This document shows, piece after piece, positions 14,141 through 54,962 of a DNA stretch of 64,000 nucleotides (positions within the stretch are counted from its first letter, which is position 1; every line of letters starts with the position of its first letter). The stretch is from Stappia sp. TSB10P1A. Its GTDB lineage: Bacteria > Pseudomonadota > Alphaproteobacteria > Rhizobiales > Stappiaceae. The notes under the pieces are model-generated. The model made no database searches, was not told the DNA's origin, and saw only the letters and a list, made by a program, of their open reading frames with translations. A program made the position numbers and the translations under genes. The DNA lies in the NCBI RefSeq assembly GCF_900185725.1, contig NZ_FYAU01000008.1:62001-126000 (forward strand), given 5' to 3'.

Positions 14141-14341
14141 TGCCGCTCCGTTAACCGCAGGTGGAAAAGAACCGCCGTCCAATGATCTACGTCACAGCTT
14201 CGCCTCAGCCTGGCGCTAGACTGATCCCGGTTTTGATGCTCAGATAGGCAGCAACGCAAGGGAGACTCCGACCCTCCCTGCTGAAGGGCCTGTCGGGAGG
14301 CGACAGTCGCCGGAACCTTTGGACATGTGAGGAGTTGGAAA

Positions 14342-14611
14342 ATGGTCAGGATTGTTCTCGTGGGTGCAACGGCCCTTCTGCTGGCGGCGTGCCAGTCCGA
14401 CAGCCAGCGTGACCGCGCGCTGGTCGGTGGCGGCCTCGGTGCCGCGACCGGCGCGGTGATCGGCGCGGCGGCGACCGGCGATGTCGGCGGCGCACTGGTC
14501 GGCGGTGTCATCGGCGGTGTCGGCGGTGCCATGGTCGGCTCGGCCACCACGCCGAAGAACTGCATCGCGACCGACCGCTACGGCCGTCGCTACCGGGTTG
14601 CCTGCCCGTAA
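14342..14611 (+). CDS. Glycine-zipper lipoprotein, copy 1
   Basis: The 89-residue protein has a lipoprotein signal ending in LLLAACQ (lipobox cysteine at residue 15), then SDSQRDRALVGGG. A glycine-zipper membrane segment follows (GLGAATGAVIGAAATGDVGG onward, alternating G and A) and a short tail with TDRYGRRYRVACP. Glycine-zipper lipoproteins of this kind sit in the outer membrane or periplasm and resemble the YmgG/OmpA-linker class; the role is unknown. GTGAGGAG precedes the ATG. A paralog of equal length follows 126 bp downstream. Confidence 0.75.
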   Translation: MVRIVLVGATALLLAACQSDSQRDRALVGGGLGAATGAVIGAAATGDVGGALVGGVIGGVGGAMVGSATTPKNCIATDRYGRRYRVACP

Positions 14612-14737
14612 GAGGCGACCTCGCCCGCCCGAGAGGGACATGCCTGACCGCCGCAACGCAAGCTTCGGCCGACCGTTGCGGTGGTGCATGCGTTTCTCGC
14701 GAAACGCAGTCCGGCCAACCAATCGGAGGCGAATTTG

Positions 14738-15007
14738 ATGAATAAGATCGTGATCGTTACGGCGGCGACCCTGCTGATTGCCGCCTGTCAGGCCGACAGC
14801 CAGCGTGACCGCGCGCTGGTCGGCGGTGGCCTCGGCGCCGCCACCGGCGCTGCCATCGGAGCCGCCGCAACGGGCGATGTCGGCGGTGCACTCGTGGGCG
14901 GTGCCATTGGCGGCGCCAGCGGCGCGGTGATCGGCTCGGCCACCACACCCCGCAACTGCGTCACCACCGACCGCTACGGCCGTCGCCACTATGTGGCCTG
15001 CCCCTAG
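14738..15007 (+). CDS. Glycine-zipper lipoprotein, copy 2
   Basis: The 89-residue paralog of the preceding gene is nearly identical from the lipobox onward (LLIAACQADSQRDRALVGGG, the same zipper, TDRYGRRHYVACP). The differing signal peptide and 3' end indicate an older tandem duplication rather than an assembly artefact. CGGAGGCG (14724-14731) lies before the ATG at 14738. Its TAG stop (15005-15007) is part of the CTAG terminus of the double-hairpin repeat that starts at 15004. Confidence 0.75.
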   Translation: MNKIVIVTAATLLIAACQADSQRDRALVGGGLGAATGAAIGAAATGDVGGALVGGAIGGASGAVIGSATTPRNCVTTDRYGRRHYVACP

Positions 15008-15169
15008 TCACCCGAATCTGAAGTTCGTCACATGTCTCGGCATGCTCTGAACGAACTTCAGATTCAAAAGGGTGACTAGCAAGTCTATGTTTCTAGTGTG
15101 GTTTTCGAATTTGAAATACGCTCGCGGCACGCTGCAAAAATGAGGCGTATTTCAAATTCACCACACTAG
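15004..15169. repeat. Double-hairpin interspersed repeat, copy 1
   Basis: This 166 bp AT-richer element consists of two long palindromes. Palindrome A pairs 15004-15028 with 15051-15079 (25 bp, perfect except for an AAAA bulge at 15066-15069) around a 22-base loop. Palindrome B pairs 15093-15121 with 15145-15169 (a TTTTC block on the left opposite a single base) around a 23-base loop. A 13 bp spacer joins them. Each palindrome starts and ends with CTAG. A second copy lies at 54198-54365. No open reading frame is carried, so it is a non-autonomous element or a structured RNA or DNA site. Confidence 0.9.
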
Positions 15170-15270: not shown

Positions 15271-16407
<1,137 letters not shown>

Positions 16408-16544
16408 TCTTGTACCTCCTCCGTGCTCGACCGCCCGGCGGTCGGGATAATCGGGAATGTTACGCGAAAACGCCTCGAATTTGCTTGCGTTGTCGGCCTC
16501 GTCTTCGCAATCTGCGCAAGATTGAAGCGCAGAATGGCTGATTG

Positions 16545-17045
16545 ATGAAACATTCTTCGAAGGAAGTCGCAAAGCTGGATCGGATCGACCGGCATATCCT
16601 TGCCCTGCTGCAGGTCGACGGGCGCATCGCCAATGCCGATCTTGCGGACGCCGTCGGCCTGTCCGCCTCCGCCTGCCTGCGCCGGGTGCGGATGCTGGAG
16701 GACAGCGGCGTCATCGACCGCTATGTCGCCCTGCTCGACCAGACCCGCATCGGCCGGCGGATGAACATTTTCGTGGAGATCTCGCTCACCTCCCAGTCGA
16801 ACGAGGTGCTGACCCGCTTCGAGCAGGCCGTCGCCCGCTCGCCGGAGATCATGGAATGCCATCTGATGGCGGGCGACGCCGACTATCTGCTGCGCATCAC
16901 CGCCGCCGATCCGATCGACTTCGAGCGCATCCACCGCGACCATCTCGCCCGCCTGCCGGGCGTCTCGCGCATGCGCTCCTCCTTCGCGATCCGCACGATT
17001 TCCCGCAGCACCGCCTATCCGCTGCCGGAAGACGACGACAGATAG
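16545..17045 (+). CDS. Lrp/AsnC-family regulator, probably of ald
   Basis: The 166-residue protein has an N-terminal AsnC-type helix-turn-helix (about residues 10-60, LDRIDRHILALLQVDGRIANADLADAVGLSASACLRRVRMLEDSG-type pattern) and a C-terminal RAM effector domain (about 75-150, with MECHLMAGDADYLLRI). Lrp-type proteins beside ald activate it in response to alanine in other bacteria. The ATG at 16545 is preceded in frame by TTG; the ATG was preferred. The intergenic region contains TTGCGCAA-like inverted half-sites that could be its operator. Confidence 0.85.
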   Translation: MKHSSKEVAKLDRIDRHILALLQVDGRIANADLADAVGLSASACLRRVRMLEDSGVIDRYVALLDQTRIGRRMNIFVEISLTSQSNEVLTRFEQAVARSPEIMECHLMAGDADYLLRITAADPIDFERIHRDHLARLPGVSRMRSSFAIRTISRSTAYPLPEDDDR

Positions 17046-46836: not shown

Positions 46837-47026
46837 GCTGCCGTCCGCCTGCCGATTCTGTTCCGCGCCATCGTCGCCCGGCCGCAAGCCGAGGGCAAGC
46901 ACGCCGGCGCCCCCGTCCCTGCAATCCACCGGCCGGCGCGGCACCAAGACTGCCCCGGCCGCCACGCGCCCCCCAGCCGCTGCGCGAGGCAAAGTCGCCA
47001 GTCGCGATTTCACCGACAAGCGCCCC

Positions 47027-47055
47027 TTTTCAGCCGCCCTCCCTGCCCCTATATT
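47027..47055 (+). promoter_or_regulatory. Promoter of ssrA
   Basis: TTTTCA (47027-47032), a 17 bp spacer and TATATT (47050-47055) predict a transcription start near 47062, just before the acceptor piece of the tmRNA. Confidence 0.5.
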
Positions 47056-47061
47056 CGGTGT

Positions 47062-47389
47062 GCCGGCGCAAGCCGGCTATGGCGATAAACGGACTTCGGA
47101 ATAAGCCTATCGGACCCGGGGGCGGTACCCGGCGCCTCCACCCAAGCCCGCCGCACGATCTGTTGGTCGGCGGGTTTCGGCGGGGGCGAAATAGGATCGA
47201 CGAGGGTGTAAAGGTCGTTCTTTTGCTCGGCATGGTTCCGCCGTTATCGGGCCGTCTCAATAGTTGCAAATGACAACTATGCTATGGACAACGCTGTCGC
47301 CGCGTAATGCGGTGCCGGTAGTCCTTTAAGCCCTGGCGGTTAGCCCCGTCAGGCGGGGTCCGGAGGCACCTGGCAACAGAAGCCTCCAC
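47062..47389 (+). ncRNA. ssrA: Two-piece (permuted) tmRNA
   Basis: The gene has the alphaproteobacterial permuted order. The acceptor piece (about 47062-47140) ends with the T-arm-like CGGACCCGGGGGCGGTACCC and acceptor strand CGCCTCC plus discriminator A (47140). An intervening segment with a CCCGCCG/CGGCGGG hairpin follows (about 47141-47181). The coding piece begins at 47182 with GGGGGCG, which pairs over seven positions with CGCCTCC. The tag frame (47266-47304, stop 47305-47307) encodes ANDNYAMDNAVAA, and the piece ends near 47389 after a GGAGGC/GCCTCC hairpin. CCA is not encoded (CCC instead). Outer ends are approximate. Confidence 0.92.
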
Positions 47390-47630
47390 TCGATTTCCGC
47401 CTGGCCTCGGCCCGCCTGACCCGCGCCCCGCCTGGCTCGCGCATGGGCAAGCGGCGGCGCCTTGAGGCCGGCGATGGCGGCGTCCAGCGGCTCGCCCTCG
47501 CGAAAAAAAGCGGGGCAAGGGGCAAAAGGCCGGTGCAAGCACCGATCGGCGCTTTTCATTCTCCCCTGCGCAAGCCATGTTGGGCGCGACCTGATTCACA
47601 CTTTCAGATTCTCACGCTCAGTTAAGTGCG

Positions 47631-52696: not shown

Positions 52697-54112
52697 TCAG
52701 TCCAGCCTTACGATCTTGCCCGGATTGAGGATGTTGTCGGGATCGAGAGCCTTCTTGATCGCCGCCATCATGTCGAGGCCCGCGCCATGTTCGCGGGCCA
52801 GATACTTCATCTTGCCCTGGCCGACGCCATGCTCGCCGGTGCAGGTGCCGCCCATGTCGATGGCACGCCAGTTGAGCCGTTCGATGAAGGCTTCAGTCTT
52901 GGCGATCTCCTGCGGATTGTCGACATCTACCAGCACCAGGACGTGGAAATTGCCGTCGCCGACATGACCGACCAGCGGCGCGAGCAGGCCGTTGGCTTCG
53001 ACGTCCCTGTACGTCTCGCCGATGCATTCCGCCAGCCGCGAGATCGGCACGCAGACATCGGTGGAGACGCCCTTGCAGCCGGGCCGGAGGCCGAGCGCGG
53101 CCCAATAGGCATTGTGCCGCGCCGCCCACAGGCGCGTGCGGTCCTCGGCCTTGGTGGCCCAGACGAACTCGCCCCCGCCGCTGTCGCGGGCGATCTCGCC
53201 GAAGATCTCGCTCTGCTCGCGCACGCCCGCTTCCGTGCCGTGGAACTCCACGAACAGCGTCGGCGTCTCCTGCAGGTCCAGCTTGGAATAAGCGTTGCAG
53301 GCGCGGATCTGGTTGGCGTCGAGCAGTTCGATCCGCGCCACCGGCAGGCCGCACTGGATGGTGGTGATCACCGCGTTGCAGGCGGAGCCAAGATCCGGGA
53401 AGGGGCAGACGCCGCCGGACACCGCTTCCGGGATGCCGTAAAGGCGGAGCGTCACCTCGGTGATGATGCCGAGCGTGCCTTCCGAGCCGACCATCAGCCG
53501 GGTGAGATCGTAGCCGGCCGCCGTCTTCTTGGCCCGCCCGCCCGTGTGGACGATACGCCCGTCCGCCGTCACCACGGTCAGCGCCAGCACCACGTCCTTC
53601 ATCGTGCCGTAGCGCACCGCATTGGTGCCGGACGCGCGCGTTGCCGCCATACCGCCAAGGCTCGCATCCGCGCCCGGATCGATGGGAAAGAACAGGCCCG
53701 TGTCGCGCAGATAGTCGTTGAGCTGGGTGCGGGTCACGCCGGCCTCGACCACGCAGTCGAGATCCTCCGCATTGACCTGCAGCACCCGGTTCATCTGCGA
53801 CACGTCGACGGAAATGCCGCCGGCCGGCGCGTTGACATGGCCCTCCAGCGACGAGCCGGTGCCGAAGGGAATGATCGGCACCTTGTGCTGCGCGCAGACC
53901 TGCACCACATCGGCGACCTCTTCGGTCGAGCGGGCGAAGACCACCCCGTCGGGCGCCTGATTCGGCAGCCAGGTGGTGGTGTGGCCGTGCTGCTCGCGCA
54001 CCGCCGCGGAGGTCGAAAACCGGTCGCCGAACCGTTGCGCCAGGATCTTCAGCGCCAGGTCTATCCCCTCGTCGTTGCGCTGAACCGCCGCCTGAAGGCT
54101 TGCAAGACTCAT
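52697..54112 (-). CDS. FAD-linked D-lactate dehydrogenase/glycolate oxidase-type enzyme
   Basis: The 471-residue flavoprotein of the FAD_binding_4/FAD-oxidase_C family has the FAD-binding PIIPFGTGSSLEGHVNAPAGGISVD, GADASLGGMAATRASGTNAVRYGTM and GSEGTLGIITEVTLRL. The metal/substrate-binding GHVGDGNFHVLVLVD and ends with CTGEHGVGQGKMKYL and ALDPDNILNPGK are also present. These match the cytochrome-linked D-lactate dehydrogenases (LDHD/Dld). D-lactate or another D-2-hydroxyacid is the likely substrate; glycolate is possible. CGGGAGAGAG precedes the ATG. Confidence 0.88.
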   Translation of the reverse strand: MSLASLQAAVQRNDEGIDLALKILAQRFGDRFSTSAAVREQHGHTTTWLPNQAPDGVVFARSTEEVADVVQVCAQHKVPIIPFGTGSSLEGHVNAPAGGISVDVSQMNRVLQVNAEDLDCVVEAGVTRTQLNDYLRDTGLFFPIDPGADASLGGMAATRASGTNAVRYGTMKDVVLALTVVTADGRIVHTGGRAKKTAAGYDLTRLMVGSEGTLGIITEVTLRLYGIPEAVSGGVCPFPDLGSACNAVITTIQCGLPVARIELLDANQIRACNAYSKLDLQETPTLFVEFHGTEAGVREQSEIFGEIARDSGGGEFVWATKAEDRTRLWAARHNAYWAALGLRPGCKGVSTDVCVPISRLAECIGETYRDVEANGLLAPLVGHVGDGNFHVLVLVDVDNPQEIAKTEAFIERLNWRAIDMGGTCTGEHGVGQGKMKYLAREHGAGLDMMAAIKKALDPDNILNPGKIVRLD

Positions 54113-54197: not shown

Positions 54198-54365
54198 CTA
54201 GTCTCGCGAATCTGAAGTTCGTCACAGGTCGCAGCACGCTCTCAACGAACTTCAGATTCAAAAGGGAGACTAGCAAGTTTGTGTTTCCAGTGTGGTTTTC
54301 GAATTTGAAATACGCTTCTACGGTCGCTGCCGAGAACAGAGCGTATTTCAAATTCACCACACTAG
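54198..54365. repeat. Double-hairpin interspersed repeat, copy 2
   Basis: This 168 bp element matches copy 1 (15004-15169). Palindrome A: 54198-54222 with 54245-54273, one mismatch and the same AAAA bulge (54260-54263). Palindrome B: 54287-54315 with 54341-54365, the same TTTTC asymmetry. The 13 bp spacer (54274-54286) differs at two positions from copy 1. Stems are conserved while both loops differ. It lies between the divergent dehydrogenase and thioesterase genes. Confidence 0.9.
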
Positions 54366-54467: not shown

Positions 54468-54962
54468 ATGTCACAGCCGAGCCGCACGCCGGCCCCCTTC
54501 ACCGGCTCGATCCAGACGGTCCGCAGCGAGTGGCTCGACTATAACGGCCATCTCAACATGGCCTATTACAATGTCCTCTTCGACACCGCCCTGGACGAGG
54601 CCTTCATCCATCTCGGCCTTGGGCCGGACTATGCGCGCGAGCGCGGCGCCTCTTTCTTCACCGCCGAAACGCATCTGTGCTACCTGCGCGAACTGAACGG
54701 GGGAGATCCGGTCCGCGCCACCGTGCAACTCGTTGATTTCGATGCGAAGCGCGCGCATCTCTACCAGGAGCTCCATCATGCGGACGACGGGTTCCTCTCG
54801 GCGACGTCCGAGCAGGTATCGCTGCATGTCGATCTTCAGGCGCGCAAGGTGATACCCTGGCCGCAGGATGTGCTGGAGCGGCTTGAGGAGATGAGGGAGA
54901 GCCACGCGGTGCTTGGCCGGCCCGAGCGCTGCGGGCGGCGGATCTCCCTCGAGAGGCGCTGA
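54468..54962 (+). CDS. Hotdog-fold acyl-CoA thioesterase
   Basis: The 164-residue 4HBT-type protein has EWLDYNGHLNMAYYNVLFDTALDEAFIHLGLG, with the catalytic aspartate-region motif DYNGHLN. This resembles thioesterases of the carnitine/betainyl-CoA pathway, which carry the same DYNGHMN motif. The substrate is not certain, since no carnitine genes are nearby. CAAGGAGCC precedes the ATG. It is followed by the ClC gene 48 bp later. Confidence 0.83.
   Translation: MSQPSRTPAPFTGSIQTVRSEWLDYNGHLNMAYYNVLFDTALDEAFIHLGLGPDYARERGASFFTAETHLCYLRELNGGDPVRATVQLVDFDAKRAHLYQELHHADDGFLSATSEQVSLHVDLQARKVIPWPQDVLERLEEMRESHAVLGRPERCGRRISLERR

Follow-up and report, generated by a model that had tools for sequence, protein, structure and literature searches.

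The segment at 15004-15169 of the window (the whole 64,000-nucleotide stretch of DNA that was analysed) raises the question of what a pair of large palindromes with CTAG at their feet might be, and how it came to stand a second time at 54198-54365. An earlier note, made from the sequence alone, had reported these two copies, and both lie where it placed them. Measured from CTAG to CTAG, copy 1 is 166 bp and copy 2 is 168 bp long, and 140 of 168 aligned columns are identical.

Two double hairpins in one window

Folding each copy bore out the anatomy that had been read from the letters, namely two long palindromes, a 13-bp spacer and bulges in both copies. Each hairpin has a single four-base bulge, always on its linker-facing arm; in both copies AAAA is unpaired in the inner arm of hairpin A and TTTT in the inner arm of hairpin B. 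In copy 1, on the plus strand, hairpin A occupies 15007-15076 and carries the IS630-type terminal sequence GTCACCCGAATCTGAAGTTCG in its outer arm, the spacer between the inner CTAGs occupies 15080-15092, and hairpin B, with its TTTT bulge, occupies 15096-15166. CTAG stands at seven of the eight hairpin ends, the exception being a CCAG at 54287-54290 (plus strand) that forms the left foot of hairpin B in copy 2. When one half is compared with the other on opposite strands, about 75% of positions match, as expected of two diverged hairpins arranged head to head. The copies are AT-rich, as had been claimed, with 45% and 46% GC against 68.0% for the window, and the supposed rarity of CTAG also held, the window having 17 occurrences where its trinucleotides predict about 51; 7 of the 17 fall inside the two copies. 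Each copy has two GANTC sites, which in copy 1 lie in the stem, at 15014 and 15061. In Rfam the element has no match, and a local scan gave nothing better than microRNA matches at chance level, well under the threshold.

Copy 1 lies at the 3' ends of a convergent gene pair, formed by a glycine-zipper protein gene (14681-15007, plus strand), whose TAG stop consists of TA and the first G of copy 1, and the adjoining alanine dehydrogenase gene (15271-16572, minus strand). Copy 2 lies between a divergent pair, with a FAD-linked oxidase gene on its left (52697-54112, minus strand) and a 4HBT thioesterase-like gene on its right (54468-54962, plus strand). The glycine-zipper gene beside copy 1 is one of two similar lipoprotein-like genes in tandem, at 14327-14611 and 14681-15007.

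Spread, true ends and target of the element

The element proved to be a dispersed mobile repeat, as a count of copies proposed in the earlier note would establish, with at least 20 places in its own genome (G000; 5.13 Mb in 64 contigs). One search found 18 distinct places in it, one of them interrupted by an insert, and two weaker ones came from further searches, so that chance likeness is far from sufficient as a cause; four further copies, at different sites, share 98% identity with copy 1. With copy 1 as query, 20 of 101 genomes match (the own genome, which is counted, and 100 relatives), and 7 of the 13 other genus members have no match to it. Under strict filters, a covariance model built from 51 copies, chosen for variety among 103, matches 18 of 384 other alphaproteobacterial genomes, or 19 of 385 in 16 genera when the own genome is included. 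A scan with the arm pattern reached at least 117 stretches in named genomes, including Bradyrhizobium, Afipia, Nitrobacter and Hyphomicrobium as well as Caulobacter, Phenylobacterium, Parvularculaceae and Magnetospira, and 4 more in viral contigs. The frequent form reads CTAG-TGTCCCGATTCCGAAGTTCG...CGAACTTCGGAATCGAA(AA)GGACA-CTAG-linker-CTAG-TGTGG...CCACA-CTAG, and the length from CTAG to CTAG is 163-168 bp in 129 of 153 distinct related copies (parsed from 147 loci). In a tree of 100 copies both window copies group with one from Hongsoonwoonella zoysiae (Stappiaceae), a stretch that contains the corresponding stretch of the relative G024 letter for letter. The window therefore probably derives from a member of Stappiaceae. 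The whole element, in the form found in G469, had no match among plasmids.

Departures from the common form were also seen. Variants of 130-133 bp occur in six places of G156 (including L195) and four places of G435. Derivatives with a single hairpin, about 63 bp long, join the left end of A to the right end of B and occupy three sites (L168, L169 and L177, in G060), and from these forms the outer ends alone may be enough for movement. The inner C-TA-G is interrupted by a short hairpin-like insert in L173, just outside the window (G000:C30:128500-129300; AGCGATTTCCGATC...), and in L284 of Bradyrhizobium pachyrhizi (AAAGCGCGATGAG...).

Empty orthologous sites, a further check that the earlier note had proposed, were found for copy 2 and for two other copies, L006 and L008. 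Copy 2 is present in G002 and G012, and the site is empty, reading ACTAGG (CTCGG-ACTAGG), in 7 of 7 aligned relatives; alone, this site fits a duplication of either CTAG or TA. The L008 copy is bounded by CTAG...CTAT in the own genome and in G002, and the empty site reads C-TA-T in G005, G012, G008 and G003; in four more distant relatives it reads CTAG (G006), CTAA (G007 and G004) and GATA (G009). It follows from the L008 sites that TA is duplicated, that the left G and the right C belong to the element, and that the outermost bases are the host's. The empty site of L006 reads CTAG in the three relatives read, and a 4-bp duplication of CTAG was dropped after the L006 and L008 sites. The unit's own ends are thus not CTAG. 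Copy 1, a double-hairpin MITE on the plus strand, runs for 160 bp from G15007 to C15166, as delimited by sequence, fold and empty sites, and applying the TA rule from the empty sites places its target duplications at 15005-15006 and 15167-15168. Copy 2, also on the plus strand, runs for 162 bp from G54201 to C54362 by the filled and empty sites of relatives, between TA duplications at 54199-54200 and 54363-54364.

Other sites are less easily read. L048 is filled as TTAG...CTAG and reads TTGG when empty in G012 and G002, which would suit a T-TA-G target, although the TA itself is missing; L015 has no readable empty site; and at the site of copy 1 there are 33-87 bp between the matched flanks in G002, G005, G008 and G012, so that it is not cleanly readable. 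One copy inserted in another's inner C-TA-G was found at L324, and end-to-end copies sharing a CTAG at L306 and L308.

Base counts were made on those 128 of 153 distinct copies in which no foot departs from CTAG at more than two of its four bases, a criterion biased towards CTAG. The bases adjacent to the element are nearly fixed (G in 127 and C in 126 of 128), and the outermost bases are C in 122 and G in 115 of 128. The contrast between inner and outermost bases is significant when pooled (Fisher p=0.0007) and on the right side (p=0.006) but not on the left (p=0.12), and in a family-level set of 76 copies it is not significant (p=0.17). This recount on distinct copies weakened the argument from base counts; the deciding empty site at L008 is unaffected, and the odds were therefore kept. 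The preference for C on the left and G on the right points to a symmetric double-stranded target.

CTAG-like targets would also suit a MITE of the IS5 family that duplicates a 4-bp CTAG/YTAR target, and in G002 an IS5-family element (DUF4096, DDE_Tnp_1) abuts one copy, L117, exactly at its CTAG foot. Such an origin is nevertheless very unlikely, since the empty site of L008 gives TA rather than CTAG as the duplicated target, and the G002 element ends in AGGCCTGTGGGG, unlike the double hairpin, so that comparison of terminal repeats disfavours it. This DUF4096 element is present in at least 5 copies; its end abuts TTAG at L389, L394 and L117, and once it stands at a double-hairpin foot.

One consequence of a TA target concerns stop codons. 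TAA and TAG both begin with TA, and the G supplied by the element completes a TAG again, so a gene hit in this way is spared. In a set of 156 copies whose flanks are distinct, TAG stands at 221 junction sides, and at 43 of these exactly one long GC3-rich open frame comes in; the junction TAG is the stop of the incoming frame in 35 of the 43, the other two frames accounting for 4 and 4. Pfam domains were present in 9 of 10 tested frames that stop at the junction TAG. Since CTAG may simply be commonest at stops, this placement can be explained by target bias together with purifying selection.

The IS630-type terminal repeat and its presumed partner

A tblastn search with the remnant protein of G010 returned 796 plasmid records. 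Eight were examined, and seven of these have an annotated IS630 transposase, in elements of 1.16-1.19 kb. A script for inverted ends, which considered TA-flanked ends only and in which the TA is therefore present by construction, found element-like terminal repeats in 6 of the 7, the pair in Paracoccus being poorer. Three of the 7 plasmid elements agree with the left end of copy 1 at 20 of its first 21 bases. Against the right ends of L444 to L450 the left end of copy 1 agrees at 24, 25, 24, 21, 23, 22 and 22 of 30 positions, respectively, the maximum among 2000 shuffled ends being 18 of 30. The hosts include Sphingobium indicum pUT1 (L444), Sinorhizobium meliloti (L445), Bradyrhizobium (L446), Komagataeibacter (L448) and Martelella (L449). 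The DDE_3 domain was confirmed in the Sphingobium indicum pUT1 and Sinorhizobium meliloti elements; the right end of the Sphingobium element reads GTCACCTGAATCTGAAGTTCGGCTCATTG, and the other right ends are alike.

The likeness is uneven among the ends. The right (B) end of copy 1 is weaker than the left, with 21 of 30 at best (shuffle maximum 18). Copy 2 gives 22 of 30 on its left (shuffle maximum 23) and 19 of 30 on its right (shuffle maximum 18), and for the GTGTCCC subfamily, which is widespread, the left end gives 20 of 30 (shuffle maximum 20). Used alone, the 35-base left end finds 98 plasmid records, and among the 40 listed, 15 coincide with an annotated IS630 transposase gene; the 41-base end of the GTGTCCC subfamily finds two, of which one is at an IS630 gene. 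The predicted partner of this subfamily would be IS630 elements with GTGTCCCGATTCCGAAGTTCG ends.

Within the genus of the window no intact IS630 element with these ends was found. Of 12 element-bearing genomes searched for the DDE_3 domain (PF13358), 10 gave no match, the own genome (64 contigs) and single-contig ones among them; in the other two there were only sub-threshold fragments (G008) and a broken remnant (G010). Of four element-free congeners, G004 and G013 have PF13358. The element is found in many families of the class, and in most of the hosts tested no DDE_3 gene was found. A fuzzy search for lone ends, covering 443 loci, gave 7 matches, of which 6 are truncated or diverged copies. 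The seventh, in one of five DDE_3 loci, lies beside the broken IS630 gene of G010 and reads C-TA-GTTACGTGAATCTAAAGTTCGCCAC. Lone ends in G005 and G008 had been considered as ends of an autonomous element and were rejected as truncated copies. In G010, a frame at L441 1357-1995 fuses an IS481-like helix-turn-helix with C-terminal sequence from an IS630 transposase.

Taken on this comparative evidence, the element is very probably a non-autonomous MITE of the IS630 family that would have formed by inverted duplication of one hairpin. It duplicates TA, shares a terminal repeat with IS630 elements, clearly so for one end only, and is short (160-162 bp), non-coding and multicopy, in at least 20 places. 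An autonomous partner in the same genome, which is usual for such elements but not defining, was not found, PF13358 giving no match in the 64-contig assembly. Against this reading stand the lack of PF13358 matches in most of the genomes tested, even though four other copies in the own genome are 98% identical to copy 1, and the poorer B end.

IS630 is said to prefer the TA in CTAG, to go by the title of a 1991 paper by Tenzen and Ohtsubo. The element shares with an IS630 group both a C-TA-G preference and the terminal repeat. For ISY100, in vitro work from 2007 shows that a transposase of the IS630 family suffices by itself for cutting, pasting and the duplication of TA (PMC2170065). From the ISY100 work and the CTAG preference of IS630 we infer a similar cut-and-paste mechanism for the element, in which the transposase would bind the outer terminal repeats, excise the element and paste it into TA. 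The proposed mover is an IS630 transposase whose element has a GTCACCYGAATCTGAAGTTCG end and which would act on the 160-bp unit. The unit may have arisen when one hairpin, which in itself amounts to two paired arms resembling terminal repeats, was duplicated in inverted orientation, and the four-base bulges of the inner arms would spoil both inner ends, causing the pair to travel as one. The source IS630 gene would be absent or lost here, the copies being either orphaned or awaiting a plasmid-borne transposase.

Palindrome upkeep and relation to known repeats

In an alignment of the 51 copies picked from 103, the two-hairpin structure, taken from copy 1, pairs in 84.9% of cells, compared with 81.2% in shuffled alignments and at most 42.9% when the structure is slid. 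Changes on both sides occur in 40 of 63 pairs (shuffled mean 20.4, with shuffles that ignore relatedness). The outer and inner tetranucleotides behave similarly: counting only junctions at which both differ from CTAG, they are exactly complementary at 27 of 43 junctions across the class (shuffled mean 6.6, maximum 15) and at 24 of 54 family-level junctions (shuffled mean 8.3, maximum 19). Complementary feet other than CTAG are found, for instance, at L200, L221, L259, L278, L299 and L311, the outer ones being partly host DNA. At L006 the simplest account is that insertion preceded the outer change, because the empty sites of three relatives read CTAG. In L087 and L039, TTTT has been gained on the outer arm opposite the A-rich bulge of the inner arm, and in L171 and L151 parts of the hairpins are inverted. 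Strand-switching repair of imperfect palindromes would explain the rewriting of both arms and tetranucleotides, and if it operates, covariation in the element is no proof of an RNA function.

This bears on the idea that the element is a structured repeat selected by the host, as a terminator, an mRNA stabiliser or a CcrM-linked regulator, with IS630-driven spread as its origin only. The conservation of both hairpins across orders, the two-sided changes, the frequent coincidence of the junction TAG with a gene's stop and the two GANTC sites per copy would agree with such a role. It has little probability all the same, as the sites of copies vary among species and more than half of the other genus members have no match, copies decay, with single-hairpin and truncated forms among them, and the arm conversion in L087 and L039 suggests that palindrome repair rather than selection lies behind the covariation; the shuffles, moreover, ignore relatedness, and one of the aligned sequences itself supplied the structure. 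The copies also offer many natural replicates both of palindrome repair and of insertion at stop codons.

Repeats of comparable shape have been named before. Chen and Shapiro reportedly described CIR, the Caulobacter CcrM-associated intergenic repeats, in 2003, and RIME, the Rhizobium-specific intergenic mosaic elements, were reportedly described by Osteras in 1995. RIME contain two large palindromes, in rhizobial genomes, and resemble the element by description only. REP/BIME hairpins, for their part, come in inverted pairs. Open-licence literature searched with biological terms and sequence strings yielded no paper recognised as describing this element.

IS630/Tc1-mariner MITEs, such as RUP with IS630-Spn1 and Correia/NEMIS, are described in the relevant entries of a review as non-coding, dispersed and flanked by a TA duplication, as the element is (PMC2229807). 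Those entries give them as one hairpin closed by both ends, whereas the element has two, set head to head across a linker and with bulges facing inward; its outer left and right ends also differ. The body plan is therefore unusual for an IS630-type MITE, being a double hairpin, a shape known from CIR. As characterised in the same review, CIR share with the element their occurrence in Alphaproteobacteria, two stem-loops with a linker, TA termini and GANTC, and they are intergenic, as both window copies are (PMC2229807). They are, in contrast, about 110 bp long, with GANTC at or near the terminal loop rather than in the stem, and are listed without terminal inverted repeats and with target duplication unknown, where the element duplicates TA (PMC2229807). 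The element fails as a CIR on size and GANTC position, and the review's description sets it apart; the 130-133-bp variants mentioned above lie between the two in size. The review's section on CIR regards them as only partly MITE-like and calls for more information on their mobility (PMC2229807). Now that a repeat of CIR-like shape can be assigned precise ends, a duplicated TA and a terminal repeat of IS630 type, that question becomes directly testable. It is conceivable, though rather doubtful, that these elements are ancient, class-wide, four-ended passengers, in which each hairpin would be an IS630 arm pair, the bulges would silence the inner ends so that both hairpins always move together, and strand-switching after insertion would go on rewriting the arms, target bases from the host included, and so keep the outer and inner tetranucleotides complementary, with CIR and RIME as shorter members.

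REP/BIME with RAYT resemble the element in having hairpins with a four-base tag, but, as set out in the passages on their feet, these read GTAG and no target is duplicated, whereas the foot of the element is TA plus C/G, with the target duplicated (PMC3733652). Least probable of all the readings is a REP/BIME-like one, in which a RAYT/Y1 (HUH) enzyme would cut single-stranded hairpins at CTAG, the inner CTAGs pairing as guides with the outer, for although two inverted hairpins, short tagged feet, bulges and complementary tetranucleotides would fit it, Y1_Tnp (PF01797), the tyrosine transposase domain, has no match in the own genome, the one searched, the right outermost base follows the empty target at L008, C on the left and G on the right indicate a symmetric double-stranded target, the complementary change at L006 is most simply post-insertion, and the element carries an IS630 terminal repeat. 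Guide pairing was dropped on the L006 and L008 sites, and the RAYT-type enzyme suggested in the earlier note found no support in a genome lacking PF01797 matches, with TA duplicated and a left end of IS630 type. Apart from the element, the window contains an alphaproteobacterial (permuted) tmRNA at 47023-47390.
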